Below, one piece after another: positions 8,096-26,764 of a DNA stretch of 27,910 bases. The translations under genes were made by a program, and so were the position numbers. The stretch's first letter is position 1; each line of letters opens with the position of its first letter. Source of the stretch: a virus. The notes beneath the pieces were generated by a model that made no database searches, was not told the DNA's origin, and was given only the letters and a program-made list of their open reading frames with translations. The DNA is taken from the IMG/VR virus record IMGVR_UViG_3300047174_000305, positions 1 to 27,910 of that record. One strand, 5' to 3'.

Positions 8096-9217
8096 TCAAC
8101 CCACCGTCACGCTGGTTGCGATGATCACTTCGCCTGGTGATGCTGCCAGATCCGCCGTACCGCCATTGATCCTAGTGACCGCCACGCTGGTAACGCTCGG
8201 ATCAACATTATGCGCCAACGCATCCAGCTTGGAGATCGCCAACGTGCCCGCCATCGGCAGCCCCGCAACCCATACACCGATCGCACTCTCGATGGCGGCG
8301 CAAACGGTTAGGTGCGTCAACGGATTGGATGTCACCACCGCCATCTGAACCGACGCCTGCAACACAGCTGGGCCGGTGACGGCGTAAGTCGCGCCAATCG
8401 GTCGAACGGCGTCCACCGCAGCACTCGCATTGGCCAACAACATATCGCCAGGCGCCCCCGTCCCATCATCCACTACCACCCAGAAATTACCGGCTAGTGG
8501 CTGATTGGCGGCGTTCACGTTCTCCAGCACCATATAGCGCAAACCTTGCTGCAACGAAGCAACCGCGAACTCAACCGCGCTCACCGTCGCCAACGATCGA
8601 CTGTTTATGTACAGCTGAAACCTGGTCCGCAGCGCAGCATCCGATTCGGGATCAAGGCCGCCCACGAACGGCTGGGCATTGCTCACATAATCCACGCCCG
8701 GAACGGCGCTCGCCAACCAACCGATCGCACCGGCCAAAATATTACCGGTTCGCCCAGGCGTCACCGCCTGCACCGGCACCAGAACATCCGTGGCGGCGCT
8801 TCCCAGCAGATAGCCCCCGTTGCCGTTCCACGCTGGATTAGATGATTGGGCGATCACCGAAAACGCCTGCGTCCGATCGGCGGTGTAAACCAGCGACCCA
8901 ACCGGAATGGTCGCCCCAACCCCCGCCGTATAACGCCCGAAATCAACCACGCCAGCGCTGGCCGATCCGGGCAAACGGATCAGTCCAAAATCCGCCATCC
9001 AACTATCCAGGTCGCTCGCGTTACTCGTCGCCGCCCGGGTCATGGATAACACCTGCAGGATCAGCCACTGCATCCAAAGTGCGACCGCCCCGCACGCCTC
9101 CAACAACGCACGCAACACGCTCCCAACCGATACATCCACGAGCGCGGCCGAGCCGCCCTGCACCGCAGCCGCCATATTTTCCAACAGGGTGGAGAATTTT
9201 TGTAGCGGCAAGATCAT
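8096..9217 (-). CDS. Baseplate J-like wedge protein
   Basis: A 373-aa protein starting at ATG 9217, one nucleotide after the gp25-like gene stop. Typical gpJ features are visible: an N-terminal helical part (SVGSVLRALLEACGAVALWMQWL), the block RLPGSASAGVVDF...IPVGSLVYTADRTQAF at about 80-120, and PESDAALRTRFQLYINS..LATVSAVEFAV at about 190-225. It forms the wedge of the contractile baseplate with the gp25-like protein upstream. Length and order are normal for the family. Confidence 0.92.
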   Translation of the reverse strand: MILPLQKFSTLLENMAAAVQGGSAALVDVSVGSVLRALLEACGAVALWMQWLILQVLSMTRAATSNASDLDSWMADFGLIRLPGSASAGVVDFGRYTAGVGATIPVGSLVYTADRTQAFSVIAQSSNPAWNGNGGYLLGSAATDVLVPVQAVTPGRTGNILAGAIGWLASAVPGVDYVSNAQPFVGGLDPESDAALRTRFQLYINSRSLATVSAVEFAVASLQQGLRYMVLENVNAANQPLAGNFWVVVDDGTGAPGDMLLANASAAVDAVRPIGATYAVTGPAVLQASVQMAVVTSNPLTHLTVCAAIESAIGVWVAGLPMAGTLAISKLDALAHNVDPSVTSVAVTRINGGTADLAASPGEVIIATSVTVG

Positions 9218-22977: not shown

Positions 22978-23047
22978 TGCAAAGATTATCGGAACTATTG
23001 GCCAGCGAGCCGCTCGCTCAAACCGCTATCGTTAAGGAAGTTATACT
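22978..23047. repeat. Left part of interrupted ~120-bp direct repeat (copy A)
   Basis: TGCAAAGATT...GGCCAGCGAGC...CTCAAACCG.TATCGTTAA.GAA.TTATAC closely matches 26592-26675. The match breaks off at the transposon end and resumes at 26411 on the other side, showing that the element landed inside this repeat. Confidence 0.85.
23036..23047. repeat. Left target duplication of the transposon
   Basis: GGAAGTTATACT, matching GGAAGTTATACC at 26411-26422 in 11 of 12 positions. It abuts the left inverted repeat. The length is greater than the 8 bp usually described for IS1595-family insertions. Confidence 0.8.
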
Positions 23048-23069
23048 CAATTATCCCTTTGACAAAGCA
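23048..23069 (+). repeat. Left terminal inverted repeat of transposon
   Basis: Reads CAATTATCCCTTTGAC then AAAGCA. It matches the reverse complement of 26389-26410 except at position 16 (C here, G there). The TTGACA within it is the -35 of the transposase promoter. Confidence 0.88.
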
Positions 23070-23087
23070 AGCCGGTGGGTGCATTAT
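23059..23087 (+). promoter_or_regulatory. Transposase promoter overlapping the left inverted repeat
   Basis: TTGACA (23059-23064), a 17-nt spacer, then CATTAT (23082-23087). The predicted transcription start is at or a few bases before the ATG at 23095, so the message is probably leaderless; no Shine-Dalgarno is seen at normal spacing. Transposase bound to the repeat would cover the -35 box. Confidence 0.7.
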
Positions 23088-23094
23088 CCTACCC

Positions 23095-24057
23095 ATGAGC
23101 ACGATCAACCTCACCGACCCGATCTTCACCGACGCCGACAAGGCCCGCGAATGGCTTGAAAGCGTCCGCTGGGCCAACGGCGTGTTCTGCGCTCACTGCG
23201 GCTCTACCAACGTTCTCCGCATGGAAGGCGAGGCGCACCGCGCCGGCCTCCACAACTGCCGCGACTGCCGCAAGCAGTTCAGCGTGACGGTCGGGACCGT
23301 GTTCGAACGCAGCCACGTGCCGTTGAACAAGTGGGTGCTGGCCAACTACCTGATGAACAGCAGCAAGAAGGGCATCTCGGCCCACCAGCTCCACCGCACG
23401 ATCGGCGTCACTTATAAGACGGCCTGGTTCATGGCCCATCGCCTCCGCGAAGCCATGACCGACACGAACCTTCCGCCGCTGGGTGGCGAGGGCAAGGTGG
23501 TGGAAGCCGACGAGATGTACCACGGCAAGGCGGAAATCCCGCCCAGCCCGGCCCGCTACGGCCGACCCTACCTCAAGCAAGGCAAGAAGGCTCAGAAGCG
23601 CACCGTGATCGCCCTGGTAGAGCGTGGCGCTGAGGCCCGCGCGGTTCATCTGAGCGGGAAGCGTGTGACGGCTAAGAACGTGGCGGAAGTCCTGGTCAAG
23701 CACGCCGACGCGAAAAGCGCGCTGCACACGGACGAAAGCGTCCTCTACCCCTCCATCGGCCCGAGCTTCGCCAAGCACGAGACGGTCCGCCATGCCGCTA
23801 ACGAGTATGCCCGTGGCAAGGGCGCCGATCTGGTCACCACGAACAGCGTTGAGGGCTTCTTTGGCGTGTTCAAGCGCGGCTTCAACGGCATCTACCAGCA
23901 CTGCGGCGAGCAGCACTTCCAGCGCTACCTGGATGAATACACCTTCCGCTACAACCACCGCGTTAAGCTGGGCTTCACGGACGCCGAGCGCGCCCTGGTG
24001 GCCATGAAGGGCATCGAGGGCAAGAGGCTGACGTATCGGCGGATTAGTGAAGCTTAA
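23095..24057 (+). CDS. IS1595-family transposase (ISXO2-like DDE)
   Basis: A 320-aa protein. ATG 23095 (MSTINLTDPIFTDADKA) is chosen over ATG 23059, which lies inside the -35 box. An N-terminal zinc ribbon has Cys 32, 35, 55 and 58 (FCAHC...NCRDC). A helical region KKGISAHQLHRTIGVTYKTAWFMAHRLREAM follows. DDE-type catalytic positions are Asp139 (EADEMYHG), Asp213 (HTDES) and Glu253 in TTNSVEGFFG, with Asn250 in the family-typical position; FRYNHR closes the core. Length and motifs are complete, so it is probably active. It is followed by a terminator that isolates it from the cargo genes. Confidence 0.95.
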   Translation: MSTINLTDPIFTDADKAREWLESVRWANGVFCAHCGSTNVLRMEGEAHRAGLHNCRDCRKQFSVTVGTVFERSHVPLNKWVLANYLMNSSKKGISAHQLHRTIGVTYKTAWFMAHRLREAMTDTNLPPLGGEGKVVEADEMYHGKAEIPPSPARYGRPYLKQGKKAQKRTVIALVERGAEARAVHLSGKRVTAKNVAEVLVKHADAKSALHTDESVLYPSIGPSFAKHETVRHAANEYARGKGADLVTTNSVEGFFGVFKRGFNGIYQHCGEQHFQRYLDEYTFRYNHRVKLGFTDAERALVAMKGIEGKRLTYRRISEA

Positions 24058-24058
24058 G

Positions 24059-24087
24059 ACGCCTAGGCAGAGGGCTAGGGCGTTTTT
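24059..24087 (+). terminator. Intrinsic terminator after transposase
   Basis: ACGCCTAG pairs with CTAGGGCGT (one bulged G) around GCAGAGGG, followed by TTTTT. It begins two bases after the transposase stop. Confidence 0.75.
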
Positions 24088-24369
24088 GAGGTGGAGACGT
24101 TTTCTCCGATTCGAACCCTAGTTTGTTGCGTAACAAAGTTATCCACAGGCTCATCTATGTCCCTGCAAGCGCTCCTGGTGACACCAACTCATTGTTAATA
24201 AATAGTATTTTATTGTGATAATTGGACACTTGCAATCAGGAAACTCTGAGGGCATTTTGCACTTGACACATCGCCGAAGGCTCGGAACGCGTCTGCGCGA
24301 ATCGCGTCCTTTGACGATGTCAATATGTCCGATCGATTTCGAGGGCGATTTCGACGGCTGGAGGTTGGT
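24088..24369. other. Noncoding leader of the cargo genes with DnaA box and AT-rich tract
   Basis: About 280 nt with no credible gene. It holds a GGAGA/TCTCC hairpin (24093-24107), a TTTGTT-GCGT... AACAAA inverted repeat (24122-24137), a perfect DnaA box TTATCCACA (24139-24147), and an AT-rich stretch (24191-24224). A weak promoter with TTGTTA (24192-24197) and an extended -10 TGTGATAAT (24214-24222 region) could drive the cargo genes. The spacing is 19 nt, longer than ideal. Confidence 0.45.
24139..24147 (+). promoter_or_regulatory. Perfect DnaA-box sequence TTATCCACA
   Basis: Exact match to the strong DnaA-binding 9-mer, about 45 nt before an AT-rich tract inside the transposon. Only one box is seen and no initiator gene or iterons, so it may be chance or a regulatory site. 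Confidence 0.4.
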
Positions 24370-24558
24370 ATGACACAGTTGGAGATAGCGAAGGAGACGT
24401 TGTTTGGCACGGAGAATCTCCATGTCAAAAACGTAAAGCTGTTTCCGGGGACCAACCGTGATGCGACCCCGGAGCAGGTTGGTGCTGAAATCAACCTTAT
24501 CATCGCCCGCCTGAGTGATGGCGATTACGATGATATCACAGATGAGTGTGACGCTTAA
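24370..24558 (+). CDS. 62-aa protein, first gene of the cargo operon
   Basis: ATG 24370 has GGAGG 5 nt upstream, which is much better than the in-frame ATG at 24325. The product begins MTQLEIAKETLFGTENLHVK, continues NVKLFPGTNRDATPEQVGAEI, and ends in an acidic tail (DGDYDDITDECDA). It is small, soluble and acidic, with a likely helix at about 33-48. I do not recognise the family and no HTH is evident. It lies 46 nt before the ImmA/IrrE-like gene on the same strand, so the two probably act together, perhaps as a small partner or antitoxin-like protein. That role is inference from arrangement only. Confidence 0.75.
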   Translation: MTQLEIAKETLFGTENLHVKNVKLFPGTNRDATPEQVGAEINLIIARLSDGDYDDITDECDA

Positions 24559-24604
24559 CTAAGGGTCTTTTCAATTCCGTTTTGAGTTAGTAGGTTGCTA
24601 GGCT

Positions 24605-25177
24605 ATGTCCTACAACCTACTACTTGGCCATGTCCAAACGACCTCTGTTCCGGTCAGTCGTTCCTCCATACAAGCCAAGGTGTTAGCCTTAAAGGGCGTA
24701 GATCGGGTGAAAATCGCTCGGTTGACGATGGACACCACCCTATGCCGCGGAATGTACTGCTCGCCTCAAAATTATCTTCATCCAATAGCGGCCCAATGCG
24801 GGGGGCATGTCATCCTTGTTGCTAGGGGTCTCACCTACGAGTGGGAGAGGATGATAGTCATCAAAGAACTTATGCATATGCTCGATGGTGACAAACACGC
24901 TACGGATTCTGGCGCCAAGTTCGAGACGGTGCTTACCGAGTTAATGCTTGGCGGGTCAGCGGATCGGACACCCGAGACAGACGCCGAGATACGTGCAGCG
25001 TGGAGGGCGATTGGCTTGATCTGTCCAGAGAAGATCAGGAAGCAATACAAAGCTACACGATGCCCGACTGGTGCGGATGATCCTGAAATAGCCAAGGCGT
25101 TGAAGGTTCCTGTGAGCTATGTCGGACTCATGTTTGGCGCAAATTTTGAAAACCGCCTTGCAGACGTAGCTGACTAG
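24605..25177 (+). CDS. ImmA/IrrE-like protein with degenerate HExxH (KELMH)
   Basis: A 190-aa protein. The core at residues 80-116 (WERMIVIKELMHMLDGD...FETVLTELMLG) follows the ImmA/IrrE (DUF955) layout, in which a helix carries HExxH and a later helix has the ELLMP-type segment. Further on, DPEIAKALKVPVSYVGLMFG (159-178) matches the family's C-terminal 'A..f.VS...v..RL' helix pair. The first metal-ligand His is Lys87 (KELMH, 87-91), and the position of the usual third ligand is not acidic in my alignment, so zinc-dependent catalysis is doubtful. The N-terminal ~75 residues contain MDTTLCRGMYCSPQN. ATG 24605 has only a weak ribosome site. Likely a regulator, toxin or defence component; unproven. 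Confidence 0.72.
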   Translation: MSYNLLLGHVQTTSVPVSRSSIQAKVLALKGVDRVKIARLTMDTTLCRGMYCSPQNYLHPIAAQCGGHVILVARGLTYEWERMIVIKELMHMLDGDKHATDSGAKFETVLTELMLGGSADRTPETDAEIRAAWRAIGLICPEKIRKQYKATRCPTGADDPEIAKALKVPVSYVGLMFGANFENRLADVAD

Positions 25178-25190
25178 CTAATCGGTTTTT
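25149..25190 (+). terminator. Possible terminator after ImmA/IrrE-like gene
   Basis: AAAACCG (25149-25155) pairs with CGGTTTT (25183-25189), enclosing a TAGCT-GACT-AGCTA hairpin (25167-25180), and a T5 tract ends the structure. The stem starts within the last codons of the gene. It would separate it from the 65-aa gene. Confidence 0.45.
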
Positions 25191-25204
25191 GCAGAAGGCG
25201 CGCC

Positions 25205-25402
25205 ATGCGCACCTACCGATTCATCCACCTTACCCCCGGGATGCCCCTCGGGCGCGGCCTATCCTTCGTGTGCCGGGACGACCAACAAGCCCTCGCCAGG
25301 GCGCGGCGGATGGGCACGGAATATCGGCCGGCAGGGGTGTGGGAGGGTGAAAGGTTTGTCGGGCCGATTCAGGACGATCTCTCAGCGCCGTCGCCTAAGT
25401 AA
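25205..25402 (+). CDS. 65-aa hypothetical cargo protein
   Basis: ATG 25205 has GAAGG 6 nt upstream and lies 27 nt after the preceding stop. The product begins MRTYRFIHLTPGMPLGRGLSF and contains VCRDDQQALARARRMGTEYRPAGVWEGERFVG, a compact alpha/beta pattern like small alphaproteobacterial hypothetical proteins. No function is recognised. The base composition is more GC-rich than that of the two genes before it. Confidence 0.6.
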   Translation: MRTYRFIHLTPGMPLGRGLSFVCRDDQQALARARRMGTEYRPAGVWEGERFVGPIQDDLSAPSPK

Positions 25403-25475
25403 AGCTATGCCATCCCAGGTTGACGACTCGGAACAAAGTACGCCTCTGTAAAGCGGTAACGCCGCCGTTCTTTTT

Positions 25476-25541
25476 GCTCTCCGGACTCGTTCGCCTCTCA
25501 GCCCCTTTGGGCGCGGGGGCGTGAGGCGTCCCCGGAGCAGC
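25476..25541. other. Long imperfect hairpin in cargo
   Basis: Nested pairing: GCT-CTCCGG (25476-25484) with CCGGAG-C-AGC (25532-25541); CGCCTC (25492-25497) with GAGGCG (25523-25528); GCCCC (25501-25505) with GGGGC (25516-25520). About 66 nt in all, with bulges, between two small ORFs. A small terminator-like stem AACG-CCGC-CGTT followed by TTTTT lies just before it (about 25459-25475). Confidence 0.5.
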
Positions 25542-25569
25542 GGGCTCACTCCCGCCAGGGCAAACTGTT

Positions 25570-25701
25570 ATGACCAAGGTCCGAAGTGAGAGGATCAGGG
25601 ACGTTTTCGTTCGAAACTACGAGCGATACCGTCTGGGGCGCCTAGAGCATGTCCGTGCTCATTGGCGTTCCCATCCCGGCCAGTATGTTTTTTCGTTTTA
25701 G
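25570..25701 (+). CDS. Possible 43-aa cargo protein
   Basis: ATG to TAG, with AGGG about 11 nt upstream. The product begins MTKVRSERIRDVFVRNYERY and ends SHPGQYVFSF. It is strongly basic and probably one helix. It could be real, but there is no homology signal I can recognise and its ribosome site is weak. Confidence 0.3.
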   Translation: MTKVRSERIRDVFVRNYERYRLGRLEHVRAHWRSHPGQYVFSF

Positions 25702-25776
25702 GTAAGACGTAGAAACTTGACGGCGGCGTTGCACCCTTGCGTCGAGTCGAATCTTAGTACGGCTGCTGACTCGGCG

Positions 25777-25968
25777 TCAACTCGATTTTCTACCTGTTTG
25801 ATGGGACTCACTTTTCCCAAATTTAGAATTGTCAGTTTCTTTGCGACTCGGGGCGGGTTTTGGCTTAACCATCATCCGCCGCGCCGTCTCCCGCGCCCGA
25901 CGTTCAACCTCATTAGGATCGAAGATTGATCCATCTTGGGGGTCCGGGAGCATTTTTGAGTCGGACAT
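25777..25968 (-). CDS. 63-aa hypothetical cargo protein on the minus strand
   Basis: ATG 25968. The product has a polar N-terminus (MSDSKMLPDPQDGSIFDPNE), then a basic helix VERRARETARRMMVKPKPAP and a polar Lys/Ser tail. The DPxDGxIFDxxEVERRARETARRM pattern looks like a coding sequence rather than noise and resembles small alphaproteobacterial hypothetical proteins. The only ribosome site is a weak ATGGG. The function is unknown. Confidence 0.5.
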   Translation of the reverse strand: MSDSKMLPDPQDGSIFDPNEVERRARETARRMMVKPKPAPSRKETDNSKFGKSESHQTGRKSS

Positions 25969-26388
25969 AAAAACCCATCATCTGGTGGAAAAGACTCGCC
26001 CAGGACGCGCGCCGCAATGTAAGGCTGACTCGCTTGGCCACCCCAGACGCGAGTCCAGGGTGGCCAGGCTGGCGGACCCGGGGGGTGGGGTGTTCTTTAC
26101 GGGGTGCCCCACCCTTCGGTCGGTAGTCTATGGGGGTGTTGGGGCTGGTGCCCTGGGAGTTCCCGCGAAGTCCTTCCCTGCAGGGTTCGATCCCCTCCAC
26201 CTCCATCCCTACCTTAAGGCCCACCGCAACGCGGTGAGGCCTTAAACTAGGCCCAAAACCCCTTACAACGTCCGCCGCGCACTTGCACTTAAAATGTAAG
26301 TGCAGCTTACGTGCATTTGCATGACGCAATACGATTCAGACCCTAGTGCGACTCAGAGATTCGGCGCAAGCTTTTATTCCTGTCGAGA
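25969..26388. ncRNA. Hairpin-rich noncoding block at right end of transposon (candidate structured RNA)
   Basis: No credible gene. Four structures follow each other. H1 26035-26066: TGGCCACCC pairs with GGGTGGCCA, with inner GAC/GTC closing a GCGA tetraloop. H2 26083-26114: GGGTGGGG with CCCCACCC. Then a tRNA-like segment at 26132-26205. H4 26214-26245: TTAAGGCC+CACCGC with GCGGTG+A+GGCCTTAA around AAC. GNRA-type capping and such dense perfect stems are unusual for random sequence and could mean a structured RNA or a recombination/replication site. No T-tract follows the last stem on either strand. Confidence 0.45.
26132..26205 (+). ncRNA. tRNA-like (tRNA/tmRNA-remnant) segment
   Basis: GGGGGTG pairs with CACCTCC (one G-T wobble) as an acceptor stem of 7. 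A D-arm-like GGGG...CCCT follows a TT linker. The T-arm CAGGG-TTCGATC-CCCTC has 4 of 5 pairs and the canonical loop. The total is 74 nt, the usual tRNA length, ending in A, but no CCA is encoded and no proper anticodon arm forms. It may be a decayed tRNA, a tmRNA 3'-end remnant or a tRNA mimic. Confidence 0.3.
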
Positions 26389-26410
26389 TGCTTTCTCAAA
26401 GGGATAATTG
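26389..26410 (-). repeat. Right terminal inverted repeat of transposon
   Basis: Reverse complement reads CAATTATCCCTTTGAG then AAAGCA, matching the left end in 21 of 22 positions. The mismatch turns the left end's TTGACA into TTGAGA. Confidence 0.88.
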
Positions 26411-26470
26411 GGAAGTTATACCTATAGTTGGGTCATCTGGGCAACTGAAAACGTCCAAACTCTGGAAAAG
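26411..26470. repeat. Right part of interrupted direct repeat (copy A), including target duplication
   Basis: GGAAGTTATACCTATAGTTGGG.CATCTGGGCAAC.GAAAA..... CCAAACTC resembles 26662-26716. The first 12 bases duplicate the left flank of the element, so this is the rest of copy A displaced by the insertion. Confidence 0.85.
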
Positions 26471-26591
26471 AAATGCCCGTCACCAAAGCCACTACAATGC
26501 ACCCATCATGGCAAGCGGGCCTTTGCAACGCTTGAACAGCATGATTAACCCGGCCAAGACCTATATCCAGGTCGGCCAGCTTGGAGAACCC
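26471..26591. other. Spacer between repeat copies with a hairpin
   Basis: No gene supported. It contains GGCC-AA-GACCT (26552-26562) pairing with AGGTC-GGCC (26569-26577) around ATATCC. The rest is unremarkable. Confidence 0.4.
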
Positions 26592-26716
26592 TGCAAAGAT
26601 TGAGGTTATATCGAAACTCTTGGCCAGCGAGCCATCCGCTCAAACCGCCATCGTTAAAGAATTTATACCTAAAGTTGGGCCATCTGGGCAACCGAAAAAC
26701 ACCCAAACTCCAAAAC
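26592..26716. repeat. Intact ~125-bp repeat (copy B)
   Basis: Uninterrupted counterpart of copy A (22978-23047 joined to 26423-26470), with the shared blocks TGCAAAGATT, GGCCAGCGAGCC, CTCAAACCG, TCGTTAA, TTATACCTA, AGTTGGG and CATCTGGGCAAC. It has an extra ~8-10 bp near its left end. It is noncoding as far as can be seen, although the minus strand gives similar short peptides in both copies. Confidence 0.8.
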
Positions 26717-26764
26717 AAATTTCCAAAACCCAAACCCCCCAGCGAAATCTGCTAAACAGCCTCC

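Follow-up and report, generated by a model that had tools for sequence, protein, structure and literature searches.

A transposon of the IS1595 family carries, just inside its right end, an array of hairpins that most likely represents a non-coding RNA gene. The window, the whole stretch of 27,910 nucleotides analysed here, is a virus record whose minus strand carries phage ORFs, including a terminase recognised by Pfam, and the transposon (23046–26412, 3,367 bp) sits in this phage genome. A passenger RNA of the transposon, for which processing and charging with alanine are proposed, is the preferred explanation of the array, with a probability of about 0.5. This reading is favoured because of the place and strand of the RNA, the covariation of its stems and a base pair of the alanine-identity type. 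By analogy with tRNAs, the RNA is probably processed and alanine-charged; covariation among related sequences indicates that its fold is under selection, so that it looks functional.

The transposon and the hairpin array

The transposon has inverted ends (inverted repeats at 23048–23069 and 26389–26410) and is flanked by an 8-bp target duplication, AAGTTATA, with the left copy at 23038–23045 and the right copy at 26413–26420. The related phage contigs L003–L005 are collinear with the window and lack the stretch from about 22.99 to 26.63 kb. The transposase gene (23059–24057, plus strand) matches PF12762 above the cut-off (E 5.2e-28) and NF033547 with 174.7 bits (cut-off 75). The element thus has the DDE transposase, the terminal inverted repeats and the 8-bp target duplication of the IS1595 family. 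It shares the transposase, terminal repeats, 8-bp duplication and a passenger region with IS1595-family transposons that carry passenger genes, but unlike them it includes a structured RNA in its passenger. The passenger region also contains an ORF of 190 residues (24605–25177, plus strand) to which no family could be assigned; searches with the protein found no relatives, and its structure model (mean pLDDT 38) is not usable. From 24058 to its end the window has no match in phages, and the segment 24058–26764 has none in plasmids.

Several smaller features accompany the element. The transposon is inserted in one copy of a phage repeat that occurs twice (22987–23046 with 26412–26474, and 26609–26720). 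The motif TTATCCACA, which resembles a DnaA box, is found within the transposon at 24139–24147 and close to the right ends of the relatives L132 and L133. Another recurrent feature of IS1595 elements is a small ORF that contains a motif like FNETLKRMLKTPPKPH; it is present as cargo of L115, L121 and L132 (minus strand) and, read by eye, near L038 and L058; in RNA-bearing transposons it mostly points away from the RNA.

The earlier note had correctly placed the array near the right end of the transposon; the distance is about 200 nt. Inspection of 26035–26245 finds every hairpin named in the note in its position. All parts of the array are given here for the plus strand. The first stem pairs TGGCCACCC (26035–26043) with GGGTGGCCA (26058–26066), an inverted repeat that encloses an inner stem, GAC-GCGA-GTC (26046–26055), with a GNRA loop; in the predicted fold it extends to leader hairpin 1 (26032–26069) with the GCGA-capped stem inside. 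The second stem, GGGTGGGG (26083–26090) with CCCCACCC (26107–26114), lies in leader hairpin 2 (26078–26119), for which 19 bp are predicted; the leader resembles the leaders of L193 and L188. A T-arm sequence, GGTTCGATCC, follows at 26184–26193. The last stem, TTAAGGCCCACCGC (26214–26227) with GCGGTGAGGCCTTAA (26231–26245), has 14 bp and one bulged A and forms the downstream hairpin (26214–26245) both in the sequence and in the predicted fold. This hairpin has no T run; it is possibly a terminator or a 3′ processing flank.

The folding energy of the array is far below that of shuffled controls (z about −6.5). The segment 26025–26250 folds with −135 kcal/mol (z = −6.45), none of 200 dinucleotide shuffles is equally low, and a repeat run gave z = −6.7. 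Among 252 fixed 220-nt tiles covering both strands of the window, with 20 shuffles each, the lowest (z = −4.8) overlaps the array. The second most structured tile of the transposon, 24421–24640, has z values of −3.9 and −3.6 on the two strands and lies around an ORF of 77 residues. The statement that no ORF explains the hairpins holds with one reservation: no common reading frame over the RNA is seen in the ORF listing of relatives, but two mechanical ORFs of 138 residues each (25829–26245 on the plus strand and 25913–26329 on the minus strand) do overlap the array.

The tRNA-like domain of the window

What had been noted as a tRNA-like segment is a compact tRNA-like domain (26132–26204, plus strand), identified by a permissive Rfam match, a model match and comparison across relatives. 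It consists of a 7-bp acceptor stem with a G3.U70 wobble (26132–26138 with 26198–26204), a D arm with a UGGU loop (26141–26154) and a T arm with a UUCGAUC loop (26181–26197), all on the plus strand, followed by A73 at 26205. Read as a 7/5 acceptor/T branch, the T stem contains one mismatch. The copy has no clear anticodon arm: its constrained fold lacks the 5-bp stem with a 7-nt loop of a canonical tRNA cloverleaf, and its free fold is not a cloverleaf. It is a divergent member of its group and, since the free fold departs from a cloverleaf and the anticodon arm is unclear, it may have decayed. The G3.U70 pair, together with A73, is presumably an alanine identity element in this domain. A review (PMC7609411) states that G3.U70 marks alanine identity.

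Standard searches pass over this domain. ARAGORN reports no tRNA or tmRNA in the window, and Rfam at its cut-offs has no match there. The tRNA-like fold was first suspected because a permissive Rfam search of 25200–26760 returned a full-length selenocysteine-tRNA match (RF01852) at 26131–26205, with 25.4 bits and an E-value of 0.025, below the cut-off of 47. Bacterial Y RNAs (YrlA) combine an Rsr-binding stem with a tRNA-like module; Rfam at its cut-offs finds no match of any kind in the window. A covariance model of 12 Rhizobiales-type RNAs built without the window, L192 and L193 (R3) has its single match within the window at this domain (33.0 bits, E 5.4e-6), which by itself indicates a tRNA-like fold and no more, because ordinary tRNAs reach 29–35 bits with its sister model R1. 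With the domain model R2 the window scores 37.1 bits, below ordinary tRNAs at 40–47, and the next-best matches of that model are tRNA-Ala and tRNA-Gly(UCC).

The case for homology between the window copy and its relatives is made by three features: its location within the element, the combination of G3.U70 and A73, and the similarity of the leader. The window leader aligns with those of L193 and L188 with scores of 55 and 48, neither of which is reached in 300 shuffles each; with the best-scoring of 12 leaders chosen, a score of 48 occurs in 3 of 300 shuffles. Seven of the 12 single leaders have no clear excess similarity to that of the window, and a search with a leader-only model found nothing.

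Relatives, covariation and conserved positions

Homologues of the RNA lie 98–307 nt before the right end, in the same place and on the same strand, in 13 other IS1595 elements, which are mostly from Rhizobiales and one of which has a weak end. Shared place and strand, covarying stems and D and T loops that change together support the suggestion that the array is a structured RNA carried as cargo. The transposase search yielded 80 viral and 80 genome loci, and 107 of the 161 scored loci (including the window, redundancy kept) are two-ended by the criterion used here. The domain lies between the ends in nine of these 107: the window, L014, L038, L046, L115, L121, L126, L132 and L133. In L046 the flanks have no matching duplication, which leaves the right end uncertain; in L118 the RNA and a right end are present, but no left end was scored; in L037 the domain sits outside the element of its locus. 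The RNA regions of L126 and L132 have no match in plasmids.

This distribution bears on the suggestion that the array is a DNA site for transposition or replication, whose palindromes act as DNA. The right end is close and the palindromes are strong, but since only nine of 107 two-ended elements hold the domain, the IS1595 family does not need it to move, and the T loop, the G.U pairs and the covariation of the D and T loops are features of RNA. A role as a DNA site is highly improbable, and a use in transposition is not supported.

Model R1, made from eight RNAs including that of the window, finds matches in 10 of the 394 genomes from the family of G001, where six of the RNAs are new (L187–L192). 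An IS1595 right end follows 98–148 nt downstream in five of the six, weakly in L192 (16 of 21), and L187 lacks one. In the family of G007 (Acetobacteraceae), two of 299 genomes match (L193 and L194). R2 exceeds 50 bits in three of 398 genomes of the phylum, and all 26 lower matches examined, out of 38 listed places, are ordinary tRNAs. At an E-value of 1e-6, R2 matches in three of 397 genomes of the family of G007, in five of 385 of the class and in one of the 48 genomes behind the loci. An IS1595-type transposase lies beside L046, L058, L228 (41% identity) and L237 (32%), and none was detected in the stretches for L187, L191, L192, L193, L194, L227, L235, L236 and L238. Because most relatives came to light through the transposase or through models trained on transposon copies, the share of them that lies in IS1595 elements is biased upwards. 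Two more domains (L239, found by a pattern search, and L240) and a tRNA-like stretch in L243 stand outside the set of 26 domains described below. Some candidates were discarded: L002 is another phage tRNA, a tRNA-Met, whose D arm is similar, L196 was judged by eye to be a chance match, and weak R1 genome matches at seven loci are ordinary tRNAs.

The stems covary across the relatives. In the model-guided alignment of 19 sequences (A3; the 20th source, L046, fell under the model threshold and was left out), 94.7% of cells are paired, compared with 79.8% after shuffling and at most 61.4% after sliding, and 57 cells change on both sides compared with 15.3 after shuffling, a number reached in none of 500 shuffles; A3 is fitted to R1, so these counts lean towards the R1 structure. 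A MAFFT alignment of 14 domains gives 91.1% paired against 78.4% and 39 double-change cells against 11.7. The middle arm covaries as well, its outermost pair being GC in six, UA in six and CG in one of these sequences. MAFFT applied to all 20 domains misaligned the copies with a full D arm and was replaced by the model-guided alignment and the 14-sequence subset.

Across 26 domains, pair 3:70 is G.U in 24 (G-C in L189 and L228) and base 73 is A in 24, while pairs 5–7 vary with compensation. CC follows in 17 of the 26 and CCA is encoded in four; L228 has a glycine-type acceptor with U73 and CCA. The acceptor/T branch reads as 7/5 in all 26, the fit having sought 7/5 only. Every D loop with GG is accompanied by a UUC, UUU or CUC T loop (21 of 21), and every one without it (UAGU or AAGU) by a UGC T loop (5 of 5), so that the association holds in 26 of 26 (Fisher p 1.5e-5, with relatedness ignored). 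D and T loops touch in tRNA, and because they change together here, the comparison supports an L-shaped, tRNA-like three-dimensional fold. The middle arm mostly runs directly into the T stem when the folds are constrained, and its 7-nt loop in relatives is often CUUCCGA, UUUCCGA or UUUCCAU. In the most frequent reading these loops would be glycine-type NCC anticodons; UAC, GUC, UCU and CAU are read in a few copies. The score behind these readings favours loops with U33, and in several copies two choices come out nearly equal.

Possible functions and known systems

Transcription, processing, charging and function are all deduced here from known tRNA rules. The RNA would be transcribed rightwards and cleaved by RNase P on the 5′ side of GGGG; trimming of its 3′ end and addition of CCA would follow, and alanyl-tRNA synthetase would charge the domain because of G3.U70. 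If charged, the relatives' copies with a glycine-type loop would be non-canonical alanine tRNAs, as reported for some allo-tRNAs.

The same structure might serve as a processing or insulation module, in which RNase P and 3′ nucleases cut the transcripts of the element free from those of the host, the leader receives a defined 3′ end and the domain stays outside translation. The constant position and strand just inside the right end, the strong acceptor and T arm beside a variable middle arm, the mostly unencoded CCA and the separability of leader and domain, seen in the intervening sequence of L192, are consistent with this. On the other hand, processing alone would not require that G3.U70 and A73 be kept while pairs 5–7 vary, and domains also occur without the hairpin leader. 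Such a module is rather unlikely. In L192 the extra sequence between leader and domain is itself hairpin-rich, which gives the two the look of separate modules.

ORFs that end 7–127 bp before the domain in L058, L046, L227, L228, L235 and L239, or overlap it with their ends in L236 and L194, suggest a module of two parts, for instance a toxin–antitoxin or regulatory pair made up of the tRNA-like RNA and a protein encoded next to it. The model of the L236 protein (single sequence, mean pLDDT 63) contains a long helix predicted with confidence and, at low confidence, a helix-helix-strand-strand end, which can be read as winged-helix-like, and a coiled coil with such an end in this one model would suit a partner protein. 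The upstream proteins of L227, L228, L235, L239, L194, L058 and L046, however, have no significant mutual sequence similarity, and in the Rhizobiales elements and the window no such ORF directly precedes the domain; a two-part module is quite improbable. By eye, a coiled coil and a winged-helix-like end were seen among the upstream ORFs of L227, L228, L235, L236, L239, L194, L058 and L046. The L058 ORF (277 residues) matches DUF5343 (E 1.1e-6), for which the openly licensed PMC papers contain no paper, a weak absence.

The resemblance to tmRNA (RF00023) lies in the G3.U70 acceptor and the T arm. A shortened tmRNA, a tRNA half without the message part that is delivered to stalled ribosomes, could account for the matches of relatives' domains to the Rfam tmRNA model (24.6–40.8 bits, below the cut-off of 47) and for a 24-nt acceptor/T-arm string that the window shares with two permuted tmRNAs. 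It is nevertheless very unlikely: neither ARAGORN nor Rfam at its cut-off reports a tmRNA in the window, and the middle arm is a short covarying hairpin in place of a message domain. The permuted tmRNAs with this string are at L242 5262–5613 and L244 1246–1686, and the string also occurs in the tRNA-like stretch L243 10365–10388, all in viral contigs.

Among known RNAs, the passenger comes closest to the alanine/serine allo-tRNAs and to the tRNA half of tmRNA. Allo-tRNAs were reportedly described by Mukai et al. in 2017. In E. coli, according to a review (PMC7609411), alanine is the amino acid inserted by allo-tRNAs that carry G3:U70; the review also mentions a pseudogene of an allo-tRNA that overlaps with a transposon-related ORF. 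As that text describes them, they are likewise tRNA-like, some copies have a short UGGU-type D loop and some the G3:U70 alanine identity, the anticodon is mismatched to the acceptor identity, a mismatch that the domains here, with uncertain anticodon readings, may share, and one case lies beside a transposon ORF. Their 12-bp branch, in the same source, is divided 8/4 or 9/3, unlike the 7/5 of the domains here, and their longer variable arm, as in tRNA-Sec, would have no room in these domains; a long middle arm, a hairpin leader and a fixed place in IS1595 elements also set the RNAs described here apart from them. The alanine-type acceptor is shared with tRNA-Ala and, in many relatives, the glycine-type loop with tRNA-Gly(UCC), but the D arm is reduced, the variable loop is missing, the middle arm is elongated and ARAGORN misses the window copy. 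The RNA is classed as a variant of non-canonical tRNA-like RNA, kept apart from allo-tRNA and tmRNA because two defining features of the former and the message domain of the latter are absent.

Non-canonical tRNAs with an acceptor identity at odds with the anticodon are known as scattered genes, and the review contains the guess that some travel with transposons (PMC7609411). In the transposon family described here, some members have an RNA of this kind in a fixed position, which makes the guess testable. A broader proposal, which is doubtful, is that IS1595 transposons spread a family of mobile RNA modules. Each would consist of a compact tRNA-like RNA of alanine type, whose anticodon loop is of glycine type, and of a partner, either a structured leader or a small protein with a winged-helix-like C-terminus, and would alter translation or act like a toxin–antitoxin pair. 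The openly licensed PMC papers contain none with both "tRNA-like" and "IS1595", again a weak absence, and on tRNA cargo none in that collection is on point by title among the matches listed. Separately, about 200 nt before its right end, IS1595 element L097 contains a complete tRNA gene (8332–8417, plus strand) whose UUA anticodon would read UAA stop codons, and further genes for tRNAs with the same anticodon lie near IS1595 transposases in the viral contigs L043 (6662–6744, minus strand) and L060 (2145–2232, minus strand).
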